From assembly GCF_003286645.3 (NCBI RefSeq), contig NZ_CP127382.2, positions 62,001 to 126,000 of the forward strand: a DNA stretch of 64,000 bases, in the 5' to 3' direction. The translations under genes and the position numbers were made by a program. The DNA is from Aerococcus tenax. GTDB taxonomy: Bacteria > Bacillota > Bacilli > Lactobacillales > Aerococcaceae. Positions 19,236-53,319 of the stretch are shown here, one piece after another (position 1 is the first letter of the stretch; the number at the start of each line of letters is the position of its first letter). The notes beneath the pieces are model-generated. The model worked only from the letters and a program-made list of their open reading frames with translations. It did not search any database and was not told the DNA's origin.

Positions 19236-19250
19236 AATTGTCTGATATTT
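19236..19250 (+). promoter_or_regulatory. CodY-like box, first BCAA receptor
   Basis: AATTGTCTGATATTT differs from the CodY consensus AATTTTCWGAAAATT at three positions. It lies about 20 bases downstream of the -10, a typical repressor position. CodY binds when branched-chain amino acids and GTP are plentiful. Confidence 0.5.
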
Positions 19251-19284: not shown

Positions 19285-20448
19285 ATGAAGATCAAGCGCA
19301 ATTTAAAGGGGTTGGCCTTAGCCGTCAGCTGCTTAATGATGACTGCTTGCGGGTCTTTAACCCAAACTCAGGAAAAGGCTAATGACCAAGCAGATGTGAT
19401 TAAGATTGGCGGTAACTGGGAACTCTCCGGTGCCACAGCAGGCTATGGTAGCCCAGGAAATGAAGGGGTGGAATTAGCCGTCGACCAGGTCAACCAGGCG
19501 GGCGGAATACTTGGCAAACAAGTGGAATACGTGTCTTTGGACAATAAGTCTACCAGTGAAGAAACCACGGCCAATACTTCGCGGTTAATCTCTAATGACC
19601 AAGTATCCTTAATCATTGGTCCAGCTACCACTGGCTTAATGGAAGCGCAGATCTCTAGCGCCTCCTCCCTGCCTGTGATTGCGCCTATGGCAACCGGCGA
19701 CAGCTTGACTACCGATAGTTACGGCAAGGTCTTAAACAATGTCTTCCGGGTTTGCTTCCAAGATGCCTTCCAAGGGCAAGCCTTGGCTAAGTTTTCTAAT
19801 GATAACCAGTTCAAGAAAGCTGTTTTAATCCGGGACAATTCGACCGACTATGGGCAAAACTTGACCAATGAATTTAAGAAGTATTTCCAAGGTGAGGTTG
19901 TCGATGAATTAGCTTATAATGCTAAGGATACCGACTTCAACTCCCTGGTTACCCGTTTGAAGGCTAAGGAACCCGATGTGATTTTTGTGGCCGGTTACTA
20001 CGAGGAAGCTGGACCCTTGATTAAGCAAGCTCGTGAACAAGGGGTTAAGGCAGCGATTCTAGGGCCAGATGGTTTTGGTAACCAAGAGATTATTGATCTC
20101 GCCGGCAAGCAAAACATGACCAATGTCTATTACACGGCCCATTACACCACCAATGACCCTAGTCCAGAACTCAAGAAATTCATGGAGGCCTACCAAGAAA
20201 AATTTGGCCATGCCCCTGATATGTTTGCTGCCTTGGCCTACGATGGGGCGCGTTTAGCCTTTGACGCCATTGAACGGGCCCAATCGCTTGATAACAAGGC
20301 CGTCAACCAAGCCCTAGCAGAAACCAAGGACTTTTCAGGGATTACTGGGAACTTTACCATCAACGACCAACATAACCCGATTAAGACCGCCTATGTGCAA
20401 AAGGTGGACCAGGGAGAAATTGTTGACACCACACCAATTGAACCCTAA
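19285..20448 (+). CDS. Branched-chain amino acid ABC transporter receptor lipoprotein (paralogue 1)
   Basis: This 387-residue LivJ-type solute-binding lipoprotein is the first of three tandem paralogues. The signal peptide ends in a lipobox (MMTAC, cysteine about residue 22). The mature part has the two-lobed type I periplasmic-binding fold of the Leu/Ile/Val family: IKIGGNWELSGATAGYG near the start, the IIGPATTGL loop, RDNSTDYGQNL, GPDGFGNQEII and ALAYDGARLAFDAIERA. These segments line up with both downstream paralogues. It has its own promoter with a CodY-like box and its own terminator, so it can be expressed separately from the permeases. Which of Leu, Ile, Val or another amino acid it binds is not evident. 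A GGAGG ribosome site precedes the ATG. Confidence 0.92.
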   Translation: MKIKRNLKGLALAVSCLMMTACGSLTQTQEKANDQADVIKIGGNWELSGATAGYGSPGNEGVELAVDQVNQAGGILGKQVEYVSLDNKSTSEETTANTSRLISNDQVSLIIGPATTGLMEAQISSASSLPVIAPMATGDSLTTDSYGKVLNNVFRVCFQDAFQGQALAKFSNDNQFKKAVLIRDNSTDYGQNLTNEFKKYFQGEVVDELAYNAKDTDFNSLVTRLKAKEPDVIFVAGYYEEAGPLIKQAREQGVKAAILGPDGFGNQEIIDLAGKQNMTNVYYTAHYTTNDPSPELKKFMEAYQEKFGHAPDMFAALAYDGARLAFDAIERAQSLDNKAVNQALAETKDFSGITGNFTINDQHNPIKTAYVQKVDQGEIVDTTPIEP

Positions 20449-20463
20449 AGGGTTAGCAAGTTG

Positions 20464-20492
20464 AAGCCATGACTTTTGTCGTGGCTTTTTTA
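20464..20492 (+). terminator. Terminator after the first BCAA receptor
   Basis: AGCCATGAC (20465-20473) pairs with GTCGTGGCT (20478-20486), with one wobble, followed by T6. Confidence 0.85.
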
Positions 20493-20607
20493 TTTCTAAA
20501 TTTAATCACAAAAGGAAAGCGCCGTTCTATTGACTAAGGGGGCTTGAGCGAGCTGGTCGCAGTCTATTTTAAATATTCTTTATATCTTTTAATTATCCAA
20601 TATTTCA

Positions 20608-20622
20608 AAAATTCAGACAATT
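20608..20622 (+). promoter_or_regulatory. CodY-like box upstream of the Ile attenuator
   Basis: AAAATTCAGACAATT differs from the CodY consensus at three positions and lies just upstream of the -35 of the leader promoter. It shares the CAGACAATT core, inverted, with the boxes at 19236 and 22288. Confidence 0.5.
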
Positions 20623-20635
20623 ATCACAAAAGGGC

Positions 20636-20664
20636 TTGCTTTCTATGGAAAGCCCTGCTAGAAT
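20636..20664 (+). promoter_or_regulatory. Promoter of the Ile leader
   Basis: TTGCTT (20636-20641), a 17-base spacer and TAGAAT (20659-20664). The start point would fall near 20671, about 27 bases before the leader peptide. Confidence 0.7.
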
Positions 20665-20697
20665 AAGTTCAAGATTATTTCGAAAGGAAGTTTATCC

Positions 20698-20748
20698 ATG
20701 TTTAGCTCCCATCAAGCAATTATTATTATTATTAATACTAGGGCTTAA
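20698..20748 (+). CDS. Isoleucine-rich leader peptide
   Basis: A 16-residue open frame, MFSSHQAIIIIINTRA, with five consecutive ATT isoleucine codons at 20719-20733. A strong ribosome site GAAAGGAAG (20682-20690) sits 7 bases before the ATG, and a promoter with 17-base spacing lies upstream. It has no sign of being a functional protein. Its role is inferred to be sensing charged tRNA-Ile: a ribosome starved for Ile stalls on the run, whereas a well-fed one reaches the stop codon at 20746-20748, which lies within the first attenuator arm. It is followed by mutually exclusive hairpins and a terminator, then the second BCAA receptor gene. Such leaders are known for amino acid biosynthetic operons; here it precedes an uptake gene. 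Confidence 0.88.
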   Translation: MFSSHQAIIIIINTRA

Positions 20749-20856
20749 CGCTGTTTCAATAAAAAACAGACTAAGTCCTATTCGTGCTTGTTAAAATGAA
20801 TGGGACTTGGATAAACAATAAAGCCACCCATTCATTCTAAGATGGGTGGCTTTTTC
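20739..20856 (+). promoter_or_regulatory. Ribosome-dependent transcription attenuator (Ile)
   Basis: Alternative pairings are visible. Arm 1 TAGGGCTTA (20739-20747, overlapping the leader stop codon) pairs with arm 2 TAAGTCCTA (20772-20780). Arm 2 AAGTCCTATTC (20773-20783) pairs with arm 3 GAATGGGACTT (20798-20808). Arm 3 ATGAATGGG (20796-20804) pairs with arm 4 CCCATTCAT (20827-20835). Arm 4 AAGCCACCCAT (20821-20831) pairs with arm 5 ATGGGTGGCTT (20842-20852), giving the terminator with T5. A ribosome at the stop codon masks arm 1, so 2:3 forms and the terminator is free. A ribosome stalled on Ile codons lets 1:2 form, so 3:4 forms and transcription continues. Confidence 0.85.
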
Positions 20857-20971
20857 TATGGCTGCTGACTTGAAATAATTGTTATGTAACGCTTCTCTGT
20901 TGGCCAACAAATCAGCGTTTGATGATTCTAAGGAAATTGCCGTGAGCAATACTTGAGAAAGGGTTTTAAAG

Positions 20972-22147
20972 ATGAAGAAAAAAATGAAGAAATTAGCCGC
21001 CTTATTTGGAACTGCTATGATGCTAGGGGCCTGTGGATCGATGACCGAAACCGCTAAGAATGATTCTGCTAACAGTGATGTGGTGAAGATTGGTGGGAAC
21101 TGGTCCTTGTCTGGGCAATATTCTGCCTATGGAACCCCTCACGACAACGGGGTCAAAGTTGCCGTTCAAAACCTTAACGATAATGGTGGGGTACTGGGTA
21201 AGAAGGTTGAATACGTCAGTGCCGATAACAAATCCGACAACGCTGAATCGACTTCCCAAGCCACCCGCTTAGTGGAACAAGAAGGTGTTAATGTTCTGGT
21301 AGGTTCAGACACCACAGGGAACTGTGAAGCGCAAATTCCTGTGGCCCAACAATTTAAGGTGCCTATGGTCGCTCCTGCAGCTACAGGGAATGGCTTGACC
21401 CTCGACGATAACGGTAACCTCTACGACTACGTCTTTAGAACTTGTTTCGAAGATGCTTACCAAAGTAAGGAATTAGGGAAGTATGCCGCTCAAAAGGGTT
21501 GGAAGAAGGTTGCCGTCTTAAAAGACAATTCCTCTGACTACGGTCAAAACGTGGCCAATGACTTCAAGGCTTCCTTTGAAGAACATGGCGGTCAAGTGGT
21601 TGGCGAAGAGTCTTACACTAGTGGAGATACCGACTTTAAGGCCCTCTTAACCAACTTAAAACAAAATTCACCTGATGTTGTCTTTATCGCTGGTTACTAC
21701 CAAGAAGGTGGATTAATCATCAAACAATTACGGGAAATGGGTGTGAATGCAGCAGTCTTAGGACCTGATGGCTTCGGTAACCAAAAACTCATCGACTTAG
21801 CTGGCACAGAAAATGCCCACGATGTCTTCTTCGTGACCCACTTCTCCCATAATGAAGACTCACCTGAAAACGTCAAAGAATTCATCAAGAAATACGAAGA
21901 TGCTTACGGCACTTCACCTGACCACTTTGCTGCTCTAGCTTATGATGCAACCAACCTCATCGCCCAAGCTATGGAAAAAGCTGGTTCAACAGATAGCGAA
22001 GCGGTTCAAAAAGCCTTAGCTGAAACCAAGGACTTCCAAGGGGTGACTGGTAAATTCTCCTTTGATAAAAACCATAACCCAGTCAAAGAAGTCTTTGTCC
22101 AAGAACTTCAAGGTGGCCAAGTGGTCGATACTGAAGTGGTTAAATAA
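20972..22147 (+). CDS. Branched-chain amino acid ABC transporter receptor lipoprotein (paralogue 2, Ile-attenuated)
   Basis: A 391-residue LivJ-type lipoprotein, close in sequence to the first and third receptors. The lipobox is MLGAC (cysteine about residue 21). Shared landmarks are VKIGGNWSLSGQYSAYG, VLVGSDTTG, LKDNSSDYGQNV, GPDGFGNQKLIDLAG and FAALAYDATNL. It lies 116 bases after a terminator that is controlled by an isoleucine-codon leader peptide. It should therefore be made mainly when Ile-tRNA is short, which suggests that isoleucine is among its ligands. An AAAGGG ribosome site precedes the ATG. No clear terminator follows. The fold and family are firm; the ligand is inferred from the leader only. 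Confidence 0.93.
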   Translation: MKKKMKKLAALFGTAMMLGACGSMTETAKNDSANSDVVKIGGNWSLSGQYSAYGTPHDNGVKVAVQNLNDNGGVLGKKVEYVSADNKSDNAESTSQATRLVEQEGVNVLVGSDTTGNCEAQIPVAQQFKVPMVAPAATGNGLTLDDNGNLYDYVFRTCFEDAYQSKELGKYAAQKGWKKVAVLKDNSSDYGQNVANDFKASFEEHGGQVVGEESYTSGDTDFKALLTNLKQNSPDVVFIAGYYQEGGLIIKQLREMGVNAAVLGPDGFGNQKLIDLAGTENAHDVFFVTHFSHNEDSPENVKEFIKKYEDAYGTSPDHFAALAYDATNLIAQAMEKAGSTDSEAVQKALAETKDFQGVTGKFSFDKNHNPVKEVFVQELQGGQVVDTEVVK

Positions 22148-22280
22148 TCCTTTTAATCCGAGAATTTTTAAATTAGACTTTGTTCATTGAAAATTAGACC
22201 TAAAGAGTCTTTGTTATATCGCTAAGTTTCTTGATCTCCACAAAAGTTTGATAAATAATTTCAAAAAAATTAAAAAGTGT

Positions 22281-22309
22281 TTGACAGAATTGTCAGACTA
22301 TTTTAGAAT
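22281..22309 (+). promoter_or_regulatory. Promoter of the third BCAA receptor with embedded CodY-like box
   Basis: A perfect -35 TTGACA (22281-22286), 17-base spacer and -10 TAGAAT (22304-22309). Between the two hexamers lies AATTGTCAGACTATT (22288-22302), which has three mismatches to the CodY consensus, so bound CodY would directly occlude RNA polymerase. Confidence 0.75.
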
Positions 22310-22369: not shown

Positions 22370-23548
22370 ATGAATAAGAAATGGTTGAAAGCCTTTGTGA
22401 CATTGGGGAGTGTCATGGCCTTAGCCGGCTGCGGTTCGGGTTCCTTGACTGAAACGACTAATCAATCCGCTGAAAATGCAGATGAAATTCGTATTGGGGG
22501 GAACTGGGAGTTATCGGGCAACGTTTCTGCTTATGGTGTTGTACAGAACAATGCGATCAAGCTCGCCGTAGATGAAAAAAATCAAGCTGGCGGCCTTCTC
22601 GATAAGAAGATCAACTACTTAGAATATGATAATAAGTCCACGACTGAGGAAGCGGTTTCTGGTGCGGAAAAACTCGTTGATGAAAATGCGGCAGTAATTA
22701 TTGGACCTTCTACCACCAATAATACTGAAGCGACGATTTCAACGGTAACCCGGGCCAAGACCCCTTTGATTTCAGCAACTGCCACTGCTGATAATATTAC
22801 CCTTGACCAAGAGGGCAATGTCTTGGATTATATCTTTAGAATCTGCTTCCAAGATTCCTTGCAAGGGGGCTCCTTGGCGGAATTCTCTAACAAGGAAGGC
22901 TATACTAAGGCAGCGATCATCAAGGATAATTCTTCTGACTACGGTCAAAACCTATCTGACGAATTCCACAAGCACTTTGATGGTGAAGTGGTTCGGGAAG
23001 AATCCTATGTGGCTAAGGAATCTGACTTTAACAGTATTTTGAGCAATATTAAGAATTCAGATGCCCAAGTGATCTTCGTTGCTGGTTATTATGAAGAAGC
23101 TGGTCCAATTATTAAACAAGCGCGCGAAATGGGCATTGACCTGCCAATTCTTGGTCCAGACGGCTTTGGGAATAAGGAAATTATTAACTTAGCAGGGGAA
23201 GAAAACTGGGATAACATTTACTATGCGGCCCACTTCGTTGAAAACGAAGATTCTCCTCAAGAAGTCAAAGACTTCTTAGCGAAGTACCGGGAGACCTACC
23301 AATCTGAACCAGATATGTTCGCAGCTTTAGCATATGATGCGGCTAACCTGGCCTTTGACGCCATCGAGCGTGCAGGCACTACAGATGGTGAAGCGGTCCA
23401 AAAAGCTCTGGCTGAAACCAAGGACTTTACCGGAGTCACTGGGAACTTCTCTATGGATGAAAAACACAATCCTTCTAAGACTGTCTTTATCCAAGAGGTA
23501 AAAGACGGCCAAGTGGTTGGTTCTCAAGCCATCGAAGCGGTTAAATAG
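22370..23548 (+). CDS. Branched-chain amino acid ABC transporter receptor lipoprotein (paralogue 3)
   Basis: A 392-residue LivJ-type lipoprotein adjoining the permease genes. The lipobox is LAGC (cysteine about residue 21). It shares IRIGGNWELSGNVSAYG, VIIGPSTTNN, IKDNSSDYGQNL, GPDGFGNKEIINLAG and FAALAYDAANLAFDAIERAG with its neighbours and looks closest to paralogue 1. It has an independent TTGACA promoter with a CodY-like box inside the spacer, and a GAGGAG ribosome site. The three receptors probably share the single LivHM channel, giving different ligand preference or affinity under different supply. Whether it binds Leu, Val, Ile or a wider range is not shown. Confidence 0.93.
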   Translation: MNKKWLKAFVTLGSVMALAGCGSGSLTETTNQSAENADEIRIGGNWELSGNVSAYGVVQNNAIKLAVDEKNQAGGLLDKKINYLEYDNKSTTEEAVSGAEKLVDENAAVIIGPSTTNNTEATISTVTRAKTPLISATATADNITLDQEGNVLDYIFRICFQDSLQGGSLAEFSNKEGYTKAAIIKDNSSDYGQNLSDEFHKHFDGEVVREESYVAKESDFNSILSNIKNSDAQVIFVAGYYEEAGPIIKQAREMGIDLPILGPDGFGNKEIINLAGEENWDNIYYAAHFVENEDSPQEVKDFLAKYRETYQSEPDMFAALAYDAANLAFDAIERAGTTDGEAVQKALAETKDFTGVTGNFSMDEKHNPSKTVFIQEVKDGQVVGSQAIEAVK

Positions 23549-23578: not shown

Positions 23579-23616
23579 AAGCAGAGTTGTCCAAGGGATG
23601 ACTCTGCTTACTGTTT
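23579..23616 (+). terminator. Hairpin between receptor 3 and livH (possible attenuator or processing site)
   Basis: AAGCAGAGT (23579-23587) pairs perfectly with ACTCTGCTT (23601-23609). The following sequence is only moderately T-rich, so it may be a leaky terminator that keeps receptor levels above permease levels. Confidence 0.45.
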
Positions 23617-23696
23617 GTTAATAGGATGTAAGGGCTTTAAAGTGAATTTTTTATATCTAGGTCTAAAAATTATTGAAATAGGATGGAGTGAGAAGT

Positions 23697-24575
23697 GTGA
23701 ATAATGTCATTCAACAATTAATCAATGGCGTGGCGCTAGGAAGCATCTATGCCTTGATGGCCTTGGGTTATACCATGGTTTATGGGATTATTGGTTTGAT
23801 TAACTTTGCCCATGGGGATATTTATATGGTGGGGGCCTTTGTCGGTTTCACCTTGATTACCAATGTGGGAATGGGTGTCTTCCCAGCACTTATTTTAGCT
23901 ATGTTATTTACTGCTGTATTAGGGGTTATTATTGAGCGGGTGGCTTATAAACCCTTGCGTGGGGCAACCCGGATTGCTGCTTTGATCACCGCGATTGGGG
24001 TATCCATGCTCCTACAAAATGTGATGATCTTCCTCAGAGGGCCTGAAGTACGGGCTTTTCCAGCAGATCTGCCTGACTGGTCCTTACAATTGGGAGCCTT
24101 TACCATTAACTCCCAACAAATTCTGATCTTAGCGGTAACTATTGTTTTAATGATTGCCTTACAAGTGATCGTACAAAAGACCAAGTTAGGCCAAGCCATG
24201 CGGGCGGTTTCGGTTGACCCAGATGCGGCTCAATTGATGGGGATTAATGCCAACACCATTATTTCCTTTACCTTCTTAATTGGTTCAGCCTTAGCAGGTG
24301 CAGCAGGGGTGTTAGTAGGGATTTACTATAATTCCATTTCACCATTAATGGGTGTCAATATTGGGACTAAGACCTTTGTTGCAGCTGTGGTCGGCGGGAT
24401 TGGATCCATTCCTGGCGCCGTTCTCGGGGGCTTGATTATCGGTATTGTGGAAACCTTTGTCTCCATGATCGGTCTTTCCACCTGGAAAGACGCTGCAGTT
24501 TATATTATTTTGATTATTATTTTACTGGTCAAACCAACCGGCTTGCTCGGTAAACCGCAAGTAGAGAAAGTGTAG
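23697..24575 (+). CDS. livH: Branched-chain amino acid ABC permease LivH
   Basis: The first of two channel subunits of the BCAA importer. About 292 residues with eight hydrophobic segments. It contains LGYTMVYGIIGLINFAHGD, the hallmark of LivH proteins, and a cytoplasmic coupling segment MGINANTIISFTF. An in-frame GTG at 23688 lies inside the GGATGGAG ribosome site, so the GTG at 23697 (MNNVIQQL) is preferred. The stop codon is followed after nine bases by livM, and livG and livF follow closely, so livHMGF is one transcript fed by the upstream receptor promoter(s). Confidence 0.94.
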   Translation: MNNVIQQLINGVALGSIYALMALGYTMVYGIIGLINFAHGDIYMVGAFVGFTLITNVGMGVFPALILAMLFTAVLGVIIERVAYKPLRGATRIAALITAIGVSMLLQNVMIFLRGPEVRAFPADLPDWSLQLGAFTINSQQILILAVTIVLMIALQVIVQKTKLGQAMRAVSVDPDAAQLMGINANTIISFTFLIGSALAGAAGVLVGIYYNSISPLMGVNIGTKTFVAAVVGGIGSIPGAVLGGLIIGIVETFVSMIGLSTWKDAAVYIILIIILLVKPTGLLGKPQVEKV

Positions 24576-24584
24576 GTGGCAAAG

Positions 24585-25592
24585 ATGAAAGAAAAGAAAA
24601 CTTCTTGGTTCAATCAGTTTTTCACCAAGACTACTTTAGCTTGGATTGGTGTCATCGTGCTCGGCTTTGTCTTAATGGCAGCCTCCTACATTGCTGGTTT
24701 AGTTTCGGCCTACACCCAAAACATTATTATGAATATTGCCATTAATATTATTCTTTCTGTGGGGCTCAACTTAGTGGTTGGTTACGCTGGCCAGTTCTCC
24801 CTAGGCCATGCTGGTTTTATGGCGATTGGGGCTTATGTGGGAGCCATCGTTTCCCAAGAAATCCCTGGCCAAGCTGGCTTCTTAGCTGGTTTACTAGCAG
24901 GTATGGTAGTGACTGCAGTCGTGGCCTTAATCGTAGGGATTCCTACCCTGCGTTTACGGGGCGACTACTTAGCCATTGCTACGCTAGGAGTTTCTGAAAT
25001 TATCCGGATTACCATTATGAACTTAGAGATTACCAATGGGGCCGCCGGAATTTCTGGGGTTCCCCGTCATGTGACCTGGATTACCATGTATGTCTTTGTG
25101 GTGATTACTACCTTATTAGTGGTTAACTACATTTATTCCAGTCCTGGTCGGGCCACCATTGCTGTCCGTGAAGATGAGATTGCGGCCGAATCAGTAGGGA
25201 TCCACACCACCACCTATAAGACCCTGGCCTTTGTGATCGGGGCGGTAACCGCAAGTATTGCTGGGACCCTCTATGCCTCCTACTTTGGCGTGATTAACCC
25301 CAGTCAGTTTACCTTCCAAAAATCCATCGACATCTTAGTGATCGTGGTTTTCGGTGGGATTGGGTCTATTTCCGGGAGCTTCGTGGCTTCGATCTTATTG
25401 GGGCTATTGAATACCTTCCTAGCGCCTTTTGGTCAAGTGCGTCCCATCCTCTATGCGGCCGCTTTGATCTTAATTATGATCTTCAAGCCGTCAGGATTAA
25501 TGGGTGAATATGAATTCCAATTCTCCAAGCTCTTTAATCGCAAACGAGGGCAATCACAAGCCGTAGCCAAAGAAGAAAGTGAGGACCAATAG
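24585..25592 (+). CDS. livM: Branched-chain amino acid ABC permease LivM
   Basis: The second channel subunit, about 335 residues with 8-9 membrane segments. The family segment SVGLNLVVGYAGQFSLGHAGFMAIGAY is present near residues 60-85, and the coupling region RDDEIAAES-like EDEIAAESVGIHTTTYK near 205. ATG 24585 is taken as the start because the AGGTGG overlapping the livH stop gives it a better spacing than GTG 24576. The C-terminus carries a charged tail. It forms a heterodimer with LivH in known systems. Confidence 0.93.
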   Translation: MKEKKTSWFNQFFTKTTLAWIGVIVLGFVLMAASYIAGLVSAYTQNIIMNIAINIILSVGLNLVVGYAGQFSLGHAGFMAIGAYVGAIVSQEIPGQAGFLAGLLAGMVVTAVVALIVGIPTLRLRGDYLAIATLGVSEIIRITIMNLEITNGAAGISGVPRHVTWITMYVFVVITTLLVVNYIYSSPGRATIAVREDEIAAESVGIHTTTYKTLAFVIGAVTASIAGTLYASYFGVINPSQFTFQKSIDILVIVVFGGIGSISGSFVASILLGLLNTFLAPFGQVRPILYAAALILIMIFKPSGLMGEYEFQFSKLFNRKRGQSQAVAKEESEDQ

Positions 25593-25593
25593 T

Positions 25594-26367
25594 ATGAGTA
25601 TCTTAAGCTTAAGCCATCTCAGCAAGTCCTTTGGGGGCCTAACCGCCGTTTCCGATGTCAGTATTCATGTGGAAGCGGATGAATTGATTGGTTTGATTGG
25701 TCCGAACGGGGCCGGGAAAACCACCCTATTTAACTTGATTACTGGGGTTTATGCACCGACTTCTGGGTCCATTGAATTAGAAACCGACCAAGGCAGCCAG
25801 TCCCTAGCTGGTCAACGCCCAGACAAGATTAATGAAATGGGGGTGGCCCGGACCTTCCAAAATATACGTCTCTTCGCCAACCGTTCGGTCTTGGACAATG
25901 TCCTCATTGCCATGCACAACAAACGCGGAGTCGGGCTTTGGCACAGTCTCCTAAGAACGCCCAAGTACTACCAAAACCGTGATGCCCTCCATGCTAAGGG
26001 GATGGAGTTATTAGCCATCTTTGGCCTGGAAGGCTACGCCAATGAAAAAGCCAAGAACCTGCCTTATGGCCAACAACGGGCTTTGGAAATCGTTCGGGCC
26101 TTGGCGACTGAACCCAAGATCCTTTTCTTAGATGAACCAGCCGCCGGGATGAACCCTAATGAAACCACGGACTTGAAACAGACTATTCGTAAGATCCAAA
26201 AAGAATTTGGAATTTCTGTTGTTCTGATCGAACACGACATGTCTTTGGTGATGGATATTTGTGAACGGATCTATGTTTTGGAATATGGAAAAGTGATCGC
26301 TGAAGGTACACCAAGCGAAATCCAAAGCAATCCGAAAGTTATCGAAGCCTACCTAGGAGGTGCCTAG
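25594..26367 (+). CDS. livG: Branched-chain amino acid ABC ATPase LivG
   Basis: The first ATPase subunit, 257 residues. Walker A GPNGAGKTT, the family-specific ARTFQNIRLFANRSVLDNV Q-loop, a slightly unusual signature NLPYGQQRALEIVRA (LPYGQQR in place of LSGGQQR, which is normal for LivG), Walker B ILFLDEPAAGMNPNE, and switch histidine VLIEHDMSLV. ATG 25594 starts two bases after the livM stop. An upstream in-frame GTG inside livM is unlikely because the GTGAGGA ribosome site would then lie within the coding start. Confidence 0.94.
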   Translation: MSILSLSHLSKSFGGLTAVSDVSIHVEADELIGLIGPNGAGKTTLFNLITGVYAPTSGSIELETDQGSQSLAGQRPDKINEMGVARTFQNIRLFANRSVLDNVLIAMHNKRGVGLWHSLLRTPKYYQNRDALHAKGMELLAIFGLEGYANEKAKNLPYGQQRALEIVRALATEPKILFLDEPAAGMNPNETTDLKQTIRKIQKEFGISVVLIEHDMSLVMDICERIYVLEYGKVIAEGTPSEIQSNPKVIEAYLGGA

Positions 26368-26370
26368 TTC

Positions 26371-27078
26371 ATGTTAGAAATCAAAAATATCAAGGTTGCC
26401 TATGGGATGATCCAAGCTATCAAGGGCATTTCCTTTACCGTTAATGAAGGGGAAATTGTTTCTCTGATTGGGGCCAATGGGGCCGGAAAGTCAACCATTC
26501 TCAAGACGATTTCTGGACTCTTAAAACCCAGCCAAGGGGAGATTCTCTACAACCATGAACCCCTACAAACTAAGTCCTGTGCCCAAATCGTCCAAGCCGG
26601 GGTTTCCCAAGTTCCTGAAGGCCGTCATGTCTTTAGCGGTATGTCCGTTAAGGAAAATTTACTGATGGGAGCCTATACCCGTAAGGACCGCGACAACTTA
26701 GCCAGCGATATGGAACGTTACTTTGATTATTTCCCGATTCTTAAGGAACGTTTCAACCAGGACGCGGCGACTTTATCCGGTGGGGAGCAACAGATGCTGG
26801 CTATGGCTCGGGCCCTGATGGCACGTCCCAAGCTCTTGCTCTTAGATGAACCGTCTATGGGTCTAGCGCCGATTTACATCCAACAAATTTTTGAAATTAT
26901 TCAAACCATTAATAGTGAGTTGAATACCACCGTCTTACTGATTGAACAAAACGCTAAGGCGGCCCTAGAAATCTCTGACCACGCCCACGTCCTCGAAGTA
27001 GGTAAAATTACCGCTTCCGGAACTGGGAAAGAACTCCTGTCTTCTGAAGTGGTCCAAAAAGCATACCTGGGAGCTTAA
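26371..27078 (+). CDS. livF: Branched-chain amino acid ABC ATPase LivF
   Basis: The second ATPase, 235 residues, ends the operon. Walker A GANGAGKST, SQVPEGRHVFSGMSVKENL (the LivF-type Q-loop region), signature LSGGEQQMLAMARALM, Walker B LLLLDEPSMGLAP, and switch region LLIEQN with Gln-Asn after Glu as usual for LivF. A CTAGGAGG ribosome site lies at the end of livG. A strong terminator follows. Confidence 0.94.
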   Translation: MLEIKNIKVAYGMIQAIKGISFTVNEGEIVSLIGANGAGKSTILKTISGLLKPSQGEILYNHEPLQTKSCAQIVQAGVSQVPEGRHVFSGMSVKENLLMGAYTRKDRDNLASDMERYFDYFPILKERFNQDAATLSGGEQQMLAMARALMARPKLLLLDEPSMGLAPIYIQQIFEIIQTINSELNTTVLLIEQNAKAALEISDHAHVLEVGKITASGTGKELLSSEVVQKAYLGA

Positions 27079-45888: not shown

Positions 45889-46017
45889 GCTTTAATATAA
45901 ATAAAAAAAGAATTTAATTATGCTTTTAAGATGTTAATATATAGTTTAACTAAATTAACTTATATCATTAGTGTAATATTGTATAAGTTAAAGTCTTCGA
46001 TTGCATGGAGGAGAACA

Positions 46018-49000
46018 ATGGAGAAGAATTATAGATATGCCATAAGAAAAACCACCTTGGGGGTGGGGAGTGTCGCCATTGCTGCCTTCTTAGCTGGCCA
46101 AGGCCAAGAAGTGCAAGCGGCGGAACAGCCCGCTCAGCCAAGTTCGGCTCTAGCAGTTGATGCAGTCAACCCTGCTGACCAAGCCGGCTACTATGCCTCA
46201 GAAGGGGCGCCGGTCAACACTGACCAGCCCACATCTGGTGAAGCCGCTAACACATCCGGTCTACCTGCCGATACTGTCAACGGGCCAATTGTGCCAGCCA
46301 ATGCATCCAATCCGGACTATTCAGATAATGAGAAGAATGTTGGAACCTACCGGCAGTCAGAAATGGCCAATAATGGGATAGGTTATACAACTAGTGAACA
46401 AGCAGGGAAGACGGAAGGGGTAAGTCATCAAGTACTTAACCCTTCGAACTCATCACCTGATAAGAAAGCTTACGGAATTGATATTTCAATTGATCGTAAT
46501 GACTCTGAAAGGACTTATAACCTTGTAGCGATTACTGATTCAAGTAGAACAGCTCCTGTTAGATTTGGGACTAAAGACTATGAAGAAGTAGGAAATCCTA
46601 CGATAATTAATAATAAGGTTGTAGATTATAAGCCAACAGCTGAAGTAGTAATTGCTAGGGCTGGCCAACAAAAGAACATCAATTCAGAGCTAAATGAAGA
46701 AGATCTCAAACATATAAACAATTTTAATAATAAGAGTACTACTATTTCATTTAGGGATAATTATACAAAAAATAATACAATTACTGCCGATCATTTATTA
46801 AGTGGAGGAAATTTTAACCTTACTTTTGGTGTTAATCCCTATCCAAATGAGAATGCTAACTTATCTCTGATCAAGGTAGCTGGGGATACCAATGTTAATC
46901 GGGTAGCTGTCAAGGAAGGTTATATTAAGACTGGGGCCCATATTGAAAATCTCGATCCGGCTGATTATGACCGAGTAGTGGGCCAAGTCTACCATCCAGA
47001 TGGATCTGTGGTGAAAGAAGCCAATGCCTTTATCGTAACACCTTCTAACATTGAAGAATTCAAAACTAAGTTAGGTAATGATATTAAACTTGGGCAAATC
47101 ATCTTTGCAATGCCTAAGGGAGCTTTGGAAGACCCTAATTCTATCTTCAACACTGAAAAATTTAAGGGCATCCAAACTCTTAAAGCTCAGTTCTTTGCAC
47201 GTCCACGTACTAAGGAAGAATTTGAATCTGTAGCATCTACGGGTGTGGATACTACTGGTTATGTTCATACTTACGTCGAAACTGGCGCCGGCACCCAAGC
47301 TCTCAACCACAACGGTGAGACGGTTATTGCTGACAAGCAAGGTATCGCCCGCTACGATAACTACAACGACCTAGGTTCCATCACCATCAATCTAGACGAC
47401 ACACGATTCTATGATCAATCATTCCTAGATCAAAACCAGAAAGATACAGAAAAGCATACTCACTCGGAAGTAAAACCTGGTCAAGAGTTTAAGGTAGAAA
47501 TGTATGTGCCTAAGACTCCTGAGGAAAATCAAAAAACAGCTGATGAAATGAAGGCAGCCGATCAGGCAGGTTTGTCAAGGGGTAAGCTTGATAAGCAATT
47601 TATAGATATTGCAAATCAAAAAATAGCCGAGCGATTAGGTACAACTGTTGATAAGTTAACTGATGATCAAAAGTGGACCGTAAGTTTTAATAGTAAAAAA
47701 GATAGTCAGGGGAATCCAGAAAAAGATGAGGGTAAGATAATAGGAGATATTACAAGCCTTTCTGTTAAAGCTCCAACCAATGCCAGGGCAGGAGACTTTG
47801 TAGCAATCCCTGTTGAGTATACTTATACAAATGGTTCAACAGATACCCATTGGTTCCACTTTGTTGTTCAAGATTCTGACAATAACAAGCCAGAATACCA
47901 TGCTGAAGTTGGTTTCCAAGGGGACAAGCTTGTCAATAAACCAAACCTTCCTGAAAATCCTAATGATAAAAAGAGGGAACCACAATCTTATGAACTTATA
48001 CCACAAGAGGGTGGCTACAAGGACGATCGAGGCAATGTTTGGTCAGATGTTAAGATTGACCCTAACACAGGTGTAGTAACAGCAATCGTTCCAGAAGATG
48101 CAGAGATTATAGGTGGGGAAAATCTTTACATACCAGTAAGGGTTAACTATGGAACTGATTCCGTTACTAACAAACCAATAACCGAAGAAGTCAGAGCCCA
48201 ATTCATCGCCCGTTCCAAATACAAGACCACCGTTACCGATACCGATGACAAGCTGATCCCTTATGAAACTAAGGAAGAATATGACGACACTCTACCTGCA
48301 GGGACCATCCAAGTGGTGACCCCAGGTAAGCCTGGTAAGGAACGGACCATCTTCGAACAAGATGTCATCAATGGCCAAAAAGGTTTGATTGACCCTGCCA
48401 CTGGCCAATTTACAGCTGGCGACCAACTTTTCCGTAAACGGACTGAAACTATCGAAGAAAAACAAGACCGTTTAGTCAAAGTGGGGGTTAAACCGGTCGA
48501 AGAAACGGTAACTATCCCTCGGACCGTCGAAGTCGAAGTGGATCCCAACATGGAAGCAACTGCTGAGCCGGTTGTGGTTGAAGAAGGCCAAGACGGCGTG
48601 GTAACTGTGAAGACGACCAGAGACCCACAAACGGGCGCGGTTAACATCACTAAGACCACCACGACACCAGCCCAGCCTAAGAAGGTCAAAGTCGGCACCA
48701 AGACCACAGGGACCGTTGTCGATACCGACGAGATCCCATTCGCCTACACCGTGGAATTCGACCCTAACTTCTACACCAACTATCCTGACGCGACTGAAAA
48801 CTACAAGGTCGTGACCCCAGGACAAGCTGGGTCCAACAAGAAGACCTGGACTATTGAGAACTCCAAGGTCGTGGGTGAGCCTGTTGTGGAAACCGTGGCG
48901 CCAGTCAACGCGGTCATCAAGGTCGGCCAAAAAGATTACAATGGCTCCTTTGAAACCGTGGACAAGGACCCAGTTCCTTACGAAACCGAATATATTGTCG

Positions 49001-52000
49001 ATAATACTTTGGCACCAGGTACAGAAGTGGTTGAAAACCCAGGTGCTCTCGGTGAGAAGACCACCACAACCACCCATACCATCCAAAATGGTCAAGTGAC
49101 TGGCTCAACCCCAGGACAAACTGTTCAGACCAAGGATCCCGTTAAACGCGTTGTACGCATTGGGGCGAAGACCAATGGCAGTCACCAAGTGACGGAACCG
49201 ATTCCATTCCAAGTGGAAGTGAAGACCGACCCATCACTTAAGAAGGGCGAATACAAGGTCGCAAATCCTGGTAAGGCAGGCAGCCAAACCAAGACTCTGA
49301 CCATCGAAAATTCTCAAGTGATCGCTACTTCTGAGCCAACCATTAATGAACAAGCAACCAATGCGGTTGTTTTAGTGGGCGACCAAGACTTTACCGGCGA
49401 AGTCAGCCACGATGTGACTGAAAAAGTTCCATTCCCTGTCAAGGTCATTGAAGATCCAAGCCTAGATAAGGGCACTTACCATGTGGACCAAGAAGGGGTT
49501 CCAGGAACTAAGACCACCACTTACACCCAAGCCATCAAGAATGGGGCTGCGGATGGGGCATTGACCTCAACCGTCAAGTCGGAAACGGCACCAACCGAAC
49601 ACATCATCCGTGTTGGCACCAAGCCTTTAGCGGGTTCAACCAATGTGACGACCACTAACCAAAAACCATTCGACGTAGAAATTAAATACGACAACACCAA
49701 GCCAGCTGGCACGGTCGAAGTCCTGCCAAATACAGGGATTCCAGGTGAAGAGACCCAGACCACTCCAGTTACTGCTGAAGATGGGACAGTGACACCAGGA
49801 TCTACCACAACAACCGAAACCAAGGCTCCTGTCAACAAGGTGATTGTTGTCGGGACCCAGGGCTATAACGGTGAATTCAGCCATGAATACACCAATGTGG
49901 TTCCTTTTGAAACCGAAGTTGAAGTCGACCCAAGTCTGGCTCCAAATGCAGTGGTTGAAGTTCAAAAAGGCCAATTAGGTGAAACCATCACCAAGGTCAG
50001 CCAAAGCATTACTAACGGTGTTCCTGGTGAGAAAGTGGTTTCTGACCCTGTTCAAACTAAGGCACCAGTTAACCGCAAGATCAAGGTAGGCGCCAAGACC
50101 AATGGCCAACATTCTCACACCGAAGAGATTCCGTTTAAATACACGGTTGAGTATGACCCAAGCATTAAAGCAGGCGAATACAAGATAGAAGTTCCTGGTA
50201 CGCCAGGCCAAAGAACAACGACATGGACCATTGAAAATTCCAAGATCGTTGGCCAAGCAGAAGTCACTGAAACAGCTCCTGTAGATGCTGTCATCAAGGT
50301 TGGCAATAAGGACTTTGAAGGTAGCTTTACCACCGTCGACAAGAACCCAATTCCATTCCAAGTGGAAGTCAAGGTTGACCCAAGTCTGGCTCCCGGAACG
50401 GAAGTTGTGGACCAAGAAGGTGTCCTCGGAGAAGAAGAAACACCAACCAACCATAAGATTGTCAATGGCCAAGTGACCGAATCGACACCAGGTGAGACCA
50501 AGCAAACCAAGGCGCCAGTCAATAAGGTTGTTCGCGTTGGGGCCAAGACAGATGGTACTTACACCCATAAGGAAGCTATTCCGTTTGAAGTAGAAGTGCG
50601 GAAGGTTAACGACCTCAAGAAGGGCGAATCCAGAGTCGCTCAAGAAGGTCAACCAGGTGAACAAACCACTACCGTAACTATCGAAAACTCCCAAGTTGTC
50701 GGTACACCAAGGACTACGACAAGCAAGCAACCTGTCAAACACATTATCGAAGTGGGCGACCAAGACTTTACCGGCGAAGTCTCCCATAATGTCACTGAAA
50801 CTCTTCCATTCAAGGTGGACATCCAAGAAGATCCAAACCTCCCACTCTTTGAAATCCAAGAAGTTCAAAAGGGTGAGAACGGATCTAAGACCACCAAGTA
50901 CAGTCAAGCCATTAAGAATGGGGCGGCTGATGGCCAGCTGAAGACGGAAGAAATCGCTCGTACAGAACCGAAGACCCATATCATCAAGGTCGGTACTAAG
51001 GCACCAGAAAATGTTGAAAGCAGAGTCAAAGAAGTGCCAGCCGAGATTGAATACGTTTACGATAATACCAAGGACAAGGGAACCGTTGAAAAAGGTGCCT
51101 ACACCCCAGGTAAGGTTGAAACGAAGATTAAGAATGTCTTCAACCCACAAACTGGTCAAATTGAAACCACAACGGAAGAAGTGGTGACCCCAGCCAAACA
51201 AGTGATTGTGGTGGGTACCAAGGACTACACCGGTGAATTCAAGCACACCGAACAAAGCCTGGCACCATTCAAGACCGAATACAAACTTGACCCAAGCTTG
51301 AAGCCAGGCCAAGAAGTGGTTGAACAAGAAGGTAAACTCGGTTTAATCGAACGTGATGTCAGTCAGAAATACGTCAATGGAACCATGTCTGATAAGGTCT
51401 TTGGTGAAACCCGAGAAGTGATTGCTCCTGAAAATCGGATCGTTCGCATCGGTGCCAAGACCAATGGCAGCCATACCTCTACAGAAGAAATTCCATTTGA
51501 TGTTAAGGTTGAAGTCGATCCAAGCTTGCCTAAGGGTGAGTATAAAGTGGTGACTCCAGGTCAACCAGGGACTAAGGAAACGACCGTCACCATTGAGAAC
51601 TCTCAAATTGTTGGCCAACCAGTATCTAAAGTGACCAAGGAACCGGTGACTCAAGTGATCAAGGTCGGCAACCAAGACTTTACCGGTCAAGTGAGCCACA
51701 CTGAACGCTTCGAAGTGCCTTACAAGGTGGAAGTGCGCGAGAATCCAAATCTCAAGGCTGGCGAAACCAAGCTCGTCCAAGAGGGTCAACCAGGGTCTTA
51801 TGACGTGACTTACACTCAAGTCATTAAGAATGGCCAAGCTGAAGGTGACTTAGGGCGTACAATTACCAACCCAGTCGAACCAAAAGCTCATATTGTTGAA
51901 GTCGGGACTAAGCCTGTTGCAGGCACAGAAACAGCTATCAACAAGGAAATTCCAGTTGAAATTGAATACGTCTTTGATGACAGCCTTGAAAAAGGTCAAG

Positions 52001-53319
52001 TGGAAACCGGTCAATTGACCCCAGGCAAGACAGAAACTAGAGTCGTTTCTAAAGTAGTGGACGGCCAAGTAGTTAATACGGAAGAGACGGTAGTAACCCC
52101 TGCTAAACAAATCGTCCGCGTGGGGTCTAAGGACTTTACCGGTGAATACAAGTTCTCCAATACTTGTCCTGTCCCATTCCCAGTTGAAATCAGAGAAAAT
52201 CCTGATTTAGCAATTGGAACAACCAAGACGGTTCAAGAGGGAGTGCCTGGTTCTAAGACCACGGACTACACCCAAACCATTAAGAATGGCCAGGCTGAAG
52301 GTGCACCGGTCAGCCAAGACGGCGCCTACACCGCACCAAAAGCCCACATCATTGAAGTGGGAACCAAGCCAGTTGCAGGCAATACCCATGAAGTCAACAA
52401 GGATGTGCCAGTCGAAACCATCTTTGAATATGACCCGAGTCTTGACAAGGGCAAGGTGGAAACCGTCCAAGTTGTGCCGGGTCATGTGACGACCCAAATT
52501 GTCAACAAGGTGGTTGACGGCAAGGTTGTAACAGAAGAAGTCCCAGTAGTGACCCCAGCCAAACATATTGTTAAGGTGGGCACCAAGGACTATACTGGCA
52601 GCTTCACTACGGTCGACAAGAATCCAGTGCCATTTGAAGTCGAGTACAAACTGGATCCGACCTTGGAAACCGGCAAAGAAGTTGTTGACCAAGAAGGCGT
52701 CTTAGGCGAAGAAGAAACTCCAACCACCCATACCATTGTCAACGGTCAAGTCACCCAATCTAAGCCAGGTGAGACCAAGCAAACTAAAGCGCCAGTCAAG
52801 AAGAGTGTCCGCATTGGTGCTAAGACTGATGGTAGCTACACCCATACGGAAGAAATTCCATTTAAGGTGAAAGTGGAAGTTGATCCAAGCCTTAACAAGG
52901 GCGAATACAAGGTTGAAACCCCAGGTCAAGTGGGGCATAAGACCACTACGGTGACGGTTGAAAACTCTCAAGTTGTCGGCACACCAAAGGTCGAAGTGAC
53001 CAAAGAACCGGTAACAGAAGTCATTAAGGTAGGCGATAAAGACTTTACTGGTCAAGTCAGCCATACCGAACACTTCGAGACCGCCTTTAAGGTGATCGTG
53101 CGTCGTAACGATGCCCTCAAACCAGGTCAAGTGAAGACCGTTCAAGAAGGCGTAAAGGGCTCCTATGATGTCACCTTTACCCAAAAGATTAAGAATGGCC
53201 AAGCGGACGGTTCACTCCAAGCTGACAGTCACAATGAAATTGCTGCGGTTGATCATATCATTGAAGTGGGACCAGATTGTCCAATCTGCCCATCCCGGCC
53301 AAGACAAACCAAATCCTGA
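46018..53319 (+). CDS. Giant G5-repeat surface adhesin, frameshifted before its LPxTG anchor
   Basis: A 2433-residue exported protein. Residues 1-36 are a YSIRK-like signal (RYAIRKTTLGVGSVAIAAFL). A Pro/Ser-rich segment (40-130) leads to about 600 residues of unique adhesive-type sequence with a YPDG/Rib-like unit near 48000-48180. About twenty-two G5-type modules of 65-85 residues follow, each ending near a V-x-V/I-G motif, up to the stop. The plan resembles biofilm proteins Aap and SasG. It ends at a stop (53317-53319) in the wrong frame; one base removed near 53288-53296 would join it to a Pro/Asp/Lys-rich wall-spanning region and LPQTG anchor, giving about 2624 residues. The true start is ATG 46018 after GGAGGAGA, not the upstream in-frame ATG. 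Confidence 0.9.
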   Translation: MEKNYRYAIRKTTLGVGSVAIAAFLAGQGQEVQAAEQPAQPSSALAVDAVNPADQAGYYASEGAPVNTDQPTSGEAANTSGLPADTVNGPIVPANASNPDYSDNEKNVGTYRQSEMANNGIGYTTSEQAGKTEGVSHQVLNPSNSSPDKKAYGIDISIDRNDSERTYNLVAITDSSRTAPVRFGTKDYEEVGNPTIINNKVVDYKPTAEVVIARAGQQKNINSELNEEDLKHINNFNNKSTTISFRDNYTKNNTITADHLLSGGNFNLTFGVNPYPNENANLSLIKVAGDTNVNRVAVKEGYIKTGAHIENLDPADYDRVVGQVYHPDGSVVKEANAFIVTPSNIEEFKTKLGNDIKLGQIIFAMPKGALEDPNSIFNTEKFKGIQTLKAQFFARPRTKEEFESVASTGVDTTGYVHTYVETGAGTQALNHNGETVIADKQGIARYDNYNDLGSITINLDDTRFYDQSFLDQNQKDTEKHTHSEVKPGQEFKVEMYVPKTPEENQKTADEMKAADQAGLSRGKLDKQFIDIANQKIAERLGTTVDKLTDDQKWTVSFNSKKDSQGNPEKDEGKIIGDITSLSVKAPTNARAGDFVAIPVEYTYTNGSTDTHWFHFVVQDSDNNKPEYHAEVGFQGDKLVNKPNLPENPNDKKREPQSYELIPQEGGYKDDRGNVWSDVKIDPNTGVVTAIVPEDAEIIGGENLYIPVRVNYGTDSVTNKPITEEVRAQFIARSKYKTTVTDTDDKLIPYETKEEYDDTLPAGTIQVVTPGKPGKERTIFEQDVINGQKGLIDPATGQFTAGDQLFRKRTETIEEKQDRLVKVGVKPVEETVTIPRTVEVEVDPNMEATAEPVVVEEGQDGVVTVKTTRDPQTGAVNITKTTTTPAQPKKVKVGTKTTGTVVDTDEIPFAYTVEFDPNFYTNYPDATENYKVVTPGQAGSNKKTWTIENSKVVGEPVVETVAPVNAVIKVGQKDYNGSFETVDKDPVPYETEYIVDNTLAPGTEVVENPGALGEKTTTTTHTIQNGQVTGSTPGQTVQTKDPVKRVVRIGAKTNGSHQVTEPIPFQVEVKTDPSLKKGEYKVANPGKAGSQTKTLTIENSQVIATSEPTINEQATNAVVLVGDQDFTGEVSHDVTEKVPFPVKVIEDPSLDKGTYHVDQEGVPGTKTTTYTQAIKNGAADGALTSTVKSETAPTEHIIRVGTKPLAGSTNVTTTNQKPFDVEIKYDNTKPAGTVEVLPNTGIPGEETQTTPVTAEDGTVTPGSTTTTETKAPVNKVIVVGTQGYNGEFSHEYTNVVPFETEVEVDPSLAPNAVVEVQKGQLGETITKVSQSITNGVPGEKVVSDPVQTKAPVNRKIKVGAKTNGQHSHTEEIPFKYTVEYDPSIKAGEYKIEVPGTPGQRTTTWTIENSKIVGQAEVTETAPVDAVIKVGNKDFEGSFTTVDKNPIPFQVEVKVDPSLAPGTEVVDQEGVLGEEETPTNHKIVNGQVTESTPGETKQTKAPVNKVVRVGAKTDGTYTHKEAIPFEVEVRKVNDLKKGESRVAQEGQPGEQTTTVTIENSQVVGTPRTTTSKQPVKHIIEVGDQDFTGEVSHNVTETLPFKVDIQEDPNLPLFEIQEVQKGENGSKTTKYSQAIKNGAADGQLKTEEIARTEPKTHIIKVGTKAPENVESRVKEVPAEIEYVYDNTKDKGTVEKGAYTPGKVETKIKNVFNPQTGQIETTTEEVVTPAKQVIVVGTKDYTGEFKHTEQSLAPFKTEYKLDPSLKPGQEVVEQEGKLGLIERDVSQKYVNGTMSDKVFGETREVIAPENRIVRIGAKTNGSHTSTEEIPFDVKVEVDPSLPKGEYKVVTPGQPGTKETTVTIENSQIVGQPVSKVTKEPVTQVIKVGNQDFTGQVSHTERFEVPYKVEVRENPNLKAGETKLVQEGQPGSYDVTYTQVIKNGQAEGDLGRTITNPVEPKAHIVEVGTKPVAGTETAINKEIPVEIEYVFDDSLEKGQVETGQLTPGKTETRVVSKVVDGQVVNTEETVVTPAKQIVRVGSKDFTGEYKFSNTCPVPFPVEIRENPDLAIGTTKTVQEGVPGSKTTDYTQTIKNGQAEGAPVSQDGAYTAPKAHIIEVGTKPVAGNTHEVNKDVPVETIFEYDPSLDKGKVETVQVVPGHVTTQIVNKVVDGKVVTEEVPVVTPAKHIVKVGTKDYTGSFTTVDKNPVPFEVEYKLDPTLETGKEVVDQEGVLGEEETPTTHTIVNGQVTQSKPGETKQTKAPVKKSVRIGAKTDGSYTHTEEIPFKVKVEVDPSLNKGEYKVETPGQVGHKTTTVTVENSQVVGTPKVEVTKEPVTEVIKVGDKDFTGQVSHTEHFETAFKVIVRRNDALKPGQVKTVQEGVKGSYDVTFTQKIKNGQADGSLQADSHNEIAAVDHIIEVGPDCPICPSRPRQTKS

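Follow-up and report, generated by a model that had tools for sequence, protein, structure and literature searches.

The region at 20636–20856 of the window, by which is meant the whole 64,000-nucleotide (64-kb) stretch of Aerococcus tenax DNA analyzed here, is very probably a ribosome-mediated transcription attenuator that makes expression of a branched-chain amino acid (BCAA) receptor gene at 20972 depend on how much charged tRNA-Ile is available. Comparison among relatives lends good support to the view that this would be a genuine attenuator, new in its target, in one of its arms and in its breadth, and not in principle. The gene that it would control (20972–22147; forward strand, as are all features described below) encodes a LivJ-like substrate-binding lipoprotein, with a Peripla_BP_6 domain and the LivJ fold, whose start lies 116 nt after the attenuator and whose counterpart in genome G015 is 99% identical.

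A short ORF that is preceded by a ribosome-binding site and carries regulatory codons toward its end, as expected of a regulatory leader peptide, is present, as judged from the sequence and from the codon bias discussed below. The leader ORF of 16 codons (20698–20748; ATG TTT AGC TCC CAT CAA GCA, five ATT, AAT ACT AGG GCT, TAA) reads as the peptide MFSSHQAIIIIINTRA, which is identical in G015 (L053) and has the form MFSLSQNIIIIIKSRA in G008 (L027). Its regulatory run of five consecutive ATT (Ile) codons occupies 20719–20733, and its ribosome-binding site, AAAGGAA (20683–20689), ends 8 nt before the leader start; all three of these elements had been named in the initial annotation. That annotation had also given the leader a promoter of its own. 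Promoter boxes can be read in the sequence (TTGCTT at 20636–20641 and TAGAAT at 20659–20664, 17 nt apart, with TG before the −10), but they fall below the threshold of a consensus promoter scan and are weak by consensus; a putative promoter at 20636–20664 is plausible, and not a strong one. From an assumed start near 20671, the RNA ending at 20856 would be about 186 nt long, which agrees with the short RNA of about 185 bases that had been predicted. Upstream of the putative promoter lies a CodY-like box, AAAATTCAGACAATT (20608–20622), that matches 12 of the 15 positions of the CodY consensus.

Downstream of the regulatory run, the RNA can adopt a chain of alternative pairings among five arms. 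Arm 1 (20739–20747) overlaps the leader stop codon and is followed by a small hairpin, CTGTTT/AAACAG (20751–20769), and then by arm 2 (20771–20785), which contains GTCCTATT, by arm 3 (20795–20810; GAATGGGACTT), by arm 4 (20820–20836), which is both the 5′ side of the terminator and a partner of arm 3, and by arm 5 with the U-tract of an intrinsic terminator (20842–20856). Pairing computation identifies all of these, with covariation as further evidence for all five arms, alignment also for arm 2, a terminator scan also for arm 5, and direct reading of the sequence for the small hairpin. The nested pairings 1:2, 2:3, 3:4, and 4:5 that had been proposed for this locus are all recovered by the computation: 1:2 joins 20739–20747 to 20772–20780 (9 bp, −11.7 kcal/mol), 2:3 joins 20771–20785 to 20796–20810 (15 bp, −21.9 kcal/mol), the core of 3:4 joins 20795–20804 to 20827–20836 (duplex of −16.3 kcal/mol), and 4:5 joins 20820–20831 to 20842–20853 (−22.1 kcal/mol), followed by T residues at 20851–20855, so that an intrinsic terminator stands between the leader and the gene.

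The proposed mechanism distinguishes three states of the leader. A ribosome that has read the leader to its stop would cover arm 1, so that 2:3 would form, arm 4 would be left free, and 4:5 would terminate transcription. A ribosome that lingers over the early Ile codons would instead leave arm 1 free to take arm 2, and arm 3 would then take arm 4 before arm 5 is made, allowing RNA polymerase to read through. In a leader that is not translated, a further arm at the leader start, arm 0, would pair with arm 3, closing the leader start and favoring the terminator. Folding of the unfinished window RNA, in which the ribosome edge was assumed to lie 16 nt downstream of the first base in the P-site, bears on the first two of these states. 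With the RNA ending at 20841, the probability of 3:4 is 0.73, 0.70, and 0.62 for Ile1, Ile2, and Ile3 in the A-site, respectively, 0.03 for Ile4, and 0.00 from Ile5 to the stop. The computed absence of 3:4 with a ribosome at the stop and its computed formation upon stalling at Ile1–Ile3 follow the logic originally proposed; stalling at Ile4 or Ile5 is predicted not to give 3:4. With Ile1 in the A-site, the value is only 0.36 if the RNA ends at 20836, the pairing being favored only once arm 4 is complete. Equilibrium folding of the full-length window RNA gives 4:5 a probability of 0.96–0.97 in every ribosome state, so that the switch would have to be kinetic, settled before arm 5 exists. Such a decision, taken while the last arm of the terminator is still missing, is usual for attenuators.

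Leaders of this kind are common in the receptor family. A set of 131 distinct receptors, many of them close copies from related species, was assembled from 76 family genomes, 60 of which have a relative of the receptor at E <= 1e-40, and from named Aerococcus contigs. A strict finder, which required a BCAA run of at least three near the end of a short ORF, a ribosome site, and then a terminator, called a leader in 65 of the 131 upstream regions, compared with 10 in the reverse complements and 12, 5, 13, 9, and 5 in five shuffles; runs of at least five codons were found in 44 of the 131, compared with 1 in the reverse complements and 2, 0, 0, 2, and 0 in the shuffles. Three calls (L031, L101, and L106) were dropped as false by their peptide and surroundings before classes were counted, and the remaining 62 comprise 29 Ile, 17 Leu, 8 Val, and 8 mixed leaders when residues are counted over the last nine of the peptide. 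Homopolymer runs of at least three near the ORF end are made of Ile for 32 receptors, Leu for 19, Val for 9, Asn for 4, and Arg and Lys for 1 each. The expectation that an attenuator in front of a receptor would be unusual in this group has accordingly to be given up, as 62 of the 131 receptors have one. The same finder detected no leader before the two paralogous receptors that flank the controlled gene, at 19285 and 22370.

Leader type follows the phylogeny of the receptors. Five labels placed on the tree of the 131 receptors require 20 changes, compared with 56.4 when the labels are shuffled (0 of 200 shuffles as low), and the receptors of the window, G015, and G008 form a single clade in which all three have Ile leaders, so that the Ile run, the conservation of which had been proposed as a check, is kept in 3 of 3. 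Because near-copies alone would make labels cluster, this clustering indicates that leader type is inherited with the receptor and is not proof that the run names the ligand. It remains plausible to predict Ile as the ligand of the receptor at 20972, with leader type following receptor clade. Pocket residues, at positions picked from expected contacts, give no guide to the ligand when set against leader type: residue 44 is Leu in 8 of 8 receptors with Val leaders, and also in leaderless receptors and in one receptor with an Ile leader.

The runs favor particular synonymous codons. Over the runs of the 62 receptor leaders, among which related leaders are not independent, GTC accounts for 77% of 53 Val codons as against 15% in the genes of the same receptors, TTA for 92% of 91 Leu codons as against 62%, and ATT for 91% of 150 Ile codons as against 60%. 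According to the available text of PMC1183508, high sensitivity of attenuation needs a particular choice among synonymous codons. The distance from the first regulatory codon to the GG of arm 1 is likewise constrained, falling at 22–25 nt in 26 of the 35 receptor leaders, out of 45, that show the motif and in 56 of 80, out of 85, from the order-wide set described below.

Both of the mutually exclusive folds are kept by compensatory change. In 21 aligned leaders, the “OFF” fold (2:3 with 4:5) has 87.0% of its cells paired, compared with at most 50.7% when the structure is slid along the alignment, and 13 pairs and 41 cells have both sides changed, compared with 7.8 and 14.0 in shuffles (0 of 500). 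The “ON” fold (1:2 with 3:4) has 85.9% of its cells paired, compared with at most 46.9% when slid by one to three columns, and 15 cells with both sides changed, compared with 6.0 in shuffles (0 of 500); counted by pairs, 5 have both sides changed, which is not above the shuffles (3.8; 131 of 500). The compensatory changes in the arms, for which the initial annotation had suggested looking, are thus seen for both folds. The alignment was made with MAFFT without structure and includes the copies of both the window and G015; the structure was supplied by the window, which favors the true over the slid versions. The 21 leaders were drawn from 23 of one sub-type, itself picked partly by the GTCCTATT motif, and L021, whose terminator was mis-assigned, L126, which nearly duplicates L125, and L078, which fitted poorly, were left out.

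The position of the region between two genes on the same strand might suggest a simpler origin, in which a chance ORF happens to precede the terminator that would normally end the upstream receptor gene. That gene already has a terminator-like hairpin of its own at 20463–20488, about 15 nt past its stop, and both the shuffle counts and the covariation contradict a chance association, so that the probability left to it is negligible. The switch was also computed for the relatives. The 62 leaders reduce to 59 non-redundant ones, 45 of which belong to “architecture A,” the other 14 forming “group B.” Across the 45, arm 4 pairing drops by a mean of 0.28 from stall to stop, compared with 0.04 in shuffles, and the drop exceeds 0.2 in 30. 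Tested leader by leader, 18 of the 45 have at most 1 of 30 shuffles performing as well, and 5 have a negative sign, two of these being about zero and one (L021) having a terminator that is probably mis-assigned.

A second, longer architecture was observed before some receptors (L071, L050, L075, L076, L079, L088, L036, and L072), in which the peptide ends in ..IIISIIIR or in a ..SIIIR-like sequence and is followed by TGTTTGT repeats and several alternative hairpins; it seems to have more arms. Group B consists mostly of this architecture, only part of its 14 leaders being ..IIISIIIR-like, and its computed switch is weak, the mean drop in arm 4 pairing being 0.165 compared with 0.01 in shuffles, with 4 of 14 above 0.2.

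Another structural element, which was absent from the initial annotation, is the sixth arm. Arm 0 (20690–20718), made up of the start region and first codons of the leader, is complementary to 20784–20816, with a core of 20690–20697/20809–20816; the duplex is worth −24.3 kcal/mol, a strength reached by 2 of 40 shuffles, and over the 12 nt of 20690–20701/20805–20816, where arm 0 meets arm 3 and its 3′ flank, complementarity is 92%. It spans the leader start and, in some relatives, the ribosome site too. In A. christensenii, the pairing is that of GTTTTATCC with GGATAAAAC, one base longer than in the window on both sides. Arm 0 and its partner have coevolved. In 15 leaders of the window’s sub-type, chosen by the author as non-redundant, the cognate duplex averages −20.8 kcal/mol, compared with −12.3 kcal/mol for non-cognate duplexes (0 of 10,000 permutations), the true partner being the strongest for 7 of the 15. 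Among 68 leaders from across the order, a set found by a covariance model that omits arm 0 and containing a few poor leader picks as well as members of the first family, the corresponding means are −18.6 and −12.9 kcal/mol (0 of 10,000 permutations), with first rank in 16. Arm 0 is unsupported in the second sub-type of architecture A (11 leaders; −11.8 compared with −11.7 kcal/mol, 3838 of 10,000 permutations).

The folding models suggest that arm 0 may close the leader and favor termination in the untranslated state. It would not do so cleanly: in the window without a ribosome, 3:4 is 0.19 with the RNA ending at 20836 and rises to as much as 0.51 with the RNA ending at 20841, and in the 45 leaders modeled upstream pairing of arm 4 averages 0.42 without a ribosome, compared with 0.57 when the 5′ part is shuffled, 0.53 when the ribosome is stalled, and 0.25 at the stop. 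These intermediate values would also suit the same wiring with a different part for arm 0, in which it only limits translation of the leader, has no role in the terminator, and leaves untranslated RNA to read through. Arm 0 does cover the start region, and in Escherichia coli trpL the ribosome site pairs with a distal leader segment. In window RNA ending at arm 4, arm 4 pairing is nevertheless 0.01 with the native 5′ part and 0.31 with the 5′ part shuffled, as would be expected if arm 0 frees arm 4; the translation-limiting alternative deserves serious attention and is the less likely of the two roles.

A different kind of reader could also be imagined, with a metabolite riboswitch or an RNA-binding protein recognizing the GTCCTATTC element and the ORF being incidental. 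The invariance of GTCCTATT in 21 of 21 aligned leaders points in that direction, its weight being small in a set selected partly by that motif, and conservation of the 2:3 loop is at least partly explained by arm 0. An incidental ORF would not account for the way in which the runs have been kept or retuned in their presence, in codon type, in distance from arm 1, and in synonymous choice. In two tandem receptor pairs (80% and 81.5% identical) the run differs, VVVIVI/IIIII in one (L087) and VVVDAV/IIIII in the other (L125), while the element stays. Recognition of the element in this manner is improbable.

Three paralogous receptor genes lie in a row around the attenuator. The upstream paralog (19285–20448) is preceded by a CodY-like box at 19236–19250, and the downstream paralog (22370–23548) by a promoter-like site at 22281–22309 and by CodY-like boxes at 22257–22271 and 22288–22302. 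Beyond them, ORFs for two permeases and two ATPases (23688–27078) are, by the family features of their translations, presumably livHMGF. A terminator-like hairpin of 14 pairs (23579–23609) separates the third receptor from the first permease gene and perhaps sets the ratio of receptor to permease. Farther downstream in the window lies an ORF of 2462 codons (45931–53319).

CodY-like boxes with at most three mismatches are not enriched in the window overall, 5 being present where 6.04 are expected, and 4 of the 5 sit before the three receptors. The CodY gene is present in G015 and G008, and in 36 of the 76 family genomes. In the 60 genomes with a receptor, leaders go with the absence of CodY: the gene is missing from 19 of 21 genomes with a leader and from 10 of 39 without one (2 genomes having both and 29 CodY only), and Fisher’s test on these counts gives 1.5e-6, a value that ignores kinship and depends on leaders assigned to genomes by hand from locus tables. 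In the window’s species, CodY and the attenuator seem to be layered, as in Staphylococcus aureus, whose ilvD leader responds to Leu and whose CodY is a sensor of Ile, according to the available text of PMC5794164. The ilvD gene was not found in G015 or G008, as in 7 of the 10 genomes checked, which makes it probable that the window’s species imports branched-chain amino acids.

Relatives of this scaffold occur in many of the Lactobacillales genomes searched. A covariance model built from the 21 aligned leaders has matches at E <= 1e-3 in 111 of the 395 genomes covered in the order, and it matches 33 of the 76 family genomes. Ninety of the matches, in 85 fetched loci, were read in detail; they include two loci twice (L143/L167 and L144/L168), one truncated copy (L136), and, on the opposite strand, four weak shadows (L146, L148, L156, and L164), and 85 of the 90 have a BCAA run of at least three in the leader. 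Immediately downstream stand ilvD (37 matches), a bile-acid-symporter-like carrier (16), ilvB (8), ilvE (6, the two duplicated loci being counted twice), a receptor (6), ridA (3), leuA (3), an iron alcohol dehydrogenase-like gene (2), an oligopeptide permease (2), brnQ (1), and another gene (1); the 5 matches without a downstream gene are these shadows and the truncated copy. Next genes were named by sequence motif, the script catching 4 of the 6 receptors, with brnQ and the other two receptors named by reading, and the names are backed by Pfam and NCBIfam for one example of most kinds. Nearly all of the downstream genes found across the order are BCAA-related.

Several of these associations extend beyond biosynthesis. 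The scaffold, mostly with Ile-rich leaders, was observed before ilvE (L143, L144, L170, and L171) and before the carrier (L145–L152, L154, L163–L165, L169, L173, L193, and L212), and this sharing suggests that the cargo of the carrier is a branched-chain amino acid or the corresponding keto acid. Three of the carriers examined score under the cut-offs of the BASS and PanS models, and one scores above that of Pfam SBF. BCAA-rich scaffold leaders were also seen before ridA (L186, L190, and L204) and before the oligopeptide permease gene (L200 and L206).

None of the loci searched reaches the threshold of an Rfam leader family. Rfam 15, searched at the gathering score over the whole window, gave only a TPP riboswitch at 1029–1127 and no leader family at the locus, where the best weak matches were to Phe_leader and trpB (26.1 bits against thresholds of 55 and 59); the Leu/phe leader RF01743 of Lactococcus lactis and the livK motif RF01744 of Pseudomonadales, listed in a table of PMC2864571 and similar to the present case by name, are absent from the Rfam matches at the locus. 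The same search of 20 loci of relatives gave only two tRNAs and no leader family. A T-box, which senses uncharged tRNA directly rather than through a ribosome and which likewise ends in a terminator with an antiterminator, would be an alternative. Nineteen T-box matches occur in genome G015, and the available text of PMC9413887 gives T-boxes as the usual His control in Lactobacillales, with His attenuators in other Firmicutes. No T-box match was found at the locus at the gathering score, nor down to E 5 in 20560–20971, although the model works in G015, and a translated codon run with synonymous bias has no place in a T-box, which makes this alternative highly improbable.

The principle of such control is long established. 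Leader attenuators of ilv, leu, his, and trp are known in enteric bacteria, and they resemble the one described here in their short leader peptide with regulatory codons, their alternative arms, and their intrinsic terminator. The resemblance is one of architecture, with differences: here a receptor for uptake would be controlled, arm 1 of a five-arm chain would be masked once the ribosome reaches the stop codon, and there is an extra arm at the start region. An outline of ilv/leu leader attenuation is given in the available text of PMC6123439, which together with that of PMC5794164 describes or cites biosynthesis under the control of BCAA leader attenuation for S. aureus, Listeria, L. lactis, Corynebacterium glutamicum, and streptococci and contains no transporter case. 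The ilvD leaders of S. aureus (PMC5794164) and Listeria (PMC5864092) share with the window’s a BCAA-rich peptide and ribosome-mediated action together with CodY, and the S. aureus antiterminator includes a segment named GAAUGG; as far as the available texts describe them, they differ in controlling biosynthesis and, in S. aureus, in an antiterminator that pairs with the poly-U tail. The predicted ilv leaders of L. lactis and streptococci (PMC6123439, PMC5794164) also have BCAA leader peptides and come from Lactobacillales, but as described in these portions they serve biosynthesis only. As 37 of the 90 matches precede ilvD, the covariance model probably includes this group.

Parallels among transporters come from other systems. 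The Bacillus subtilis bmrCD leader provides ribosome-mediated attenuation of a Gram-positive transporter, although this is a multidrug ABC transporter responding to antibiotics (PMC4191407, available text). In bacilli, PMC2965389 describes leader peptides of the His type for genes like hisS, and it also describes attenuators upstream of ABC transporter genes; its available part does not mention branched-chain amino acids or isoleucine. T-box codons have been used to assign transporter substrates, an approach that similarly lets a regulatory codon predict cargo but involves no translated leader; the available text of the same study, PMC2494555, expects BCAA symporters to be broad despite specific control and greater specificity from ABC systems that have a binding protein. 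A literature search of mostly open-access sources found no published leader attenuation of BCAA receptors and no description of the scaffold or RNA family.

Taken at its broadest, the comparison would define an RNA family outside Rfam that extends across Lactobacillales, a proposal about as likely as not to be right. Its members would be leader-peptide attenuators of six arms, with arm 0 covering the start, that have spread to genes of biosynthesis (ilvD, ilvB, leuA, and ilvE), of transport (LivJ receptors, BrnQ, the bile-acid-symporter-like carrier, and oligopeptide permease), and of RidA; in Aerococcaceae, they would have been duplicated with the receptors, the run being retuned to Ile, Leu, Val, or mixtures for each paralog so that it names the amino acid served, and they would be used most where CodY has been lost. 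If this is true, receptors for uptake join the BCAA regulon of lactic-acid bacteria, probably along with RidA and an unassigned carrier. Natural pairs in which one scaffold carries different codons would suit direct tests of stalling, of codon choice, and of arm 0. The codon run would also become a readable label for the branched-chain amino acid served by each receptor paralog, something that the sequence of a binding protein rarely tells.
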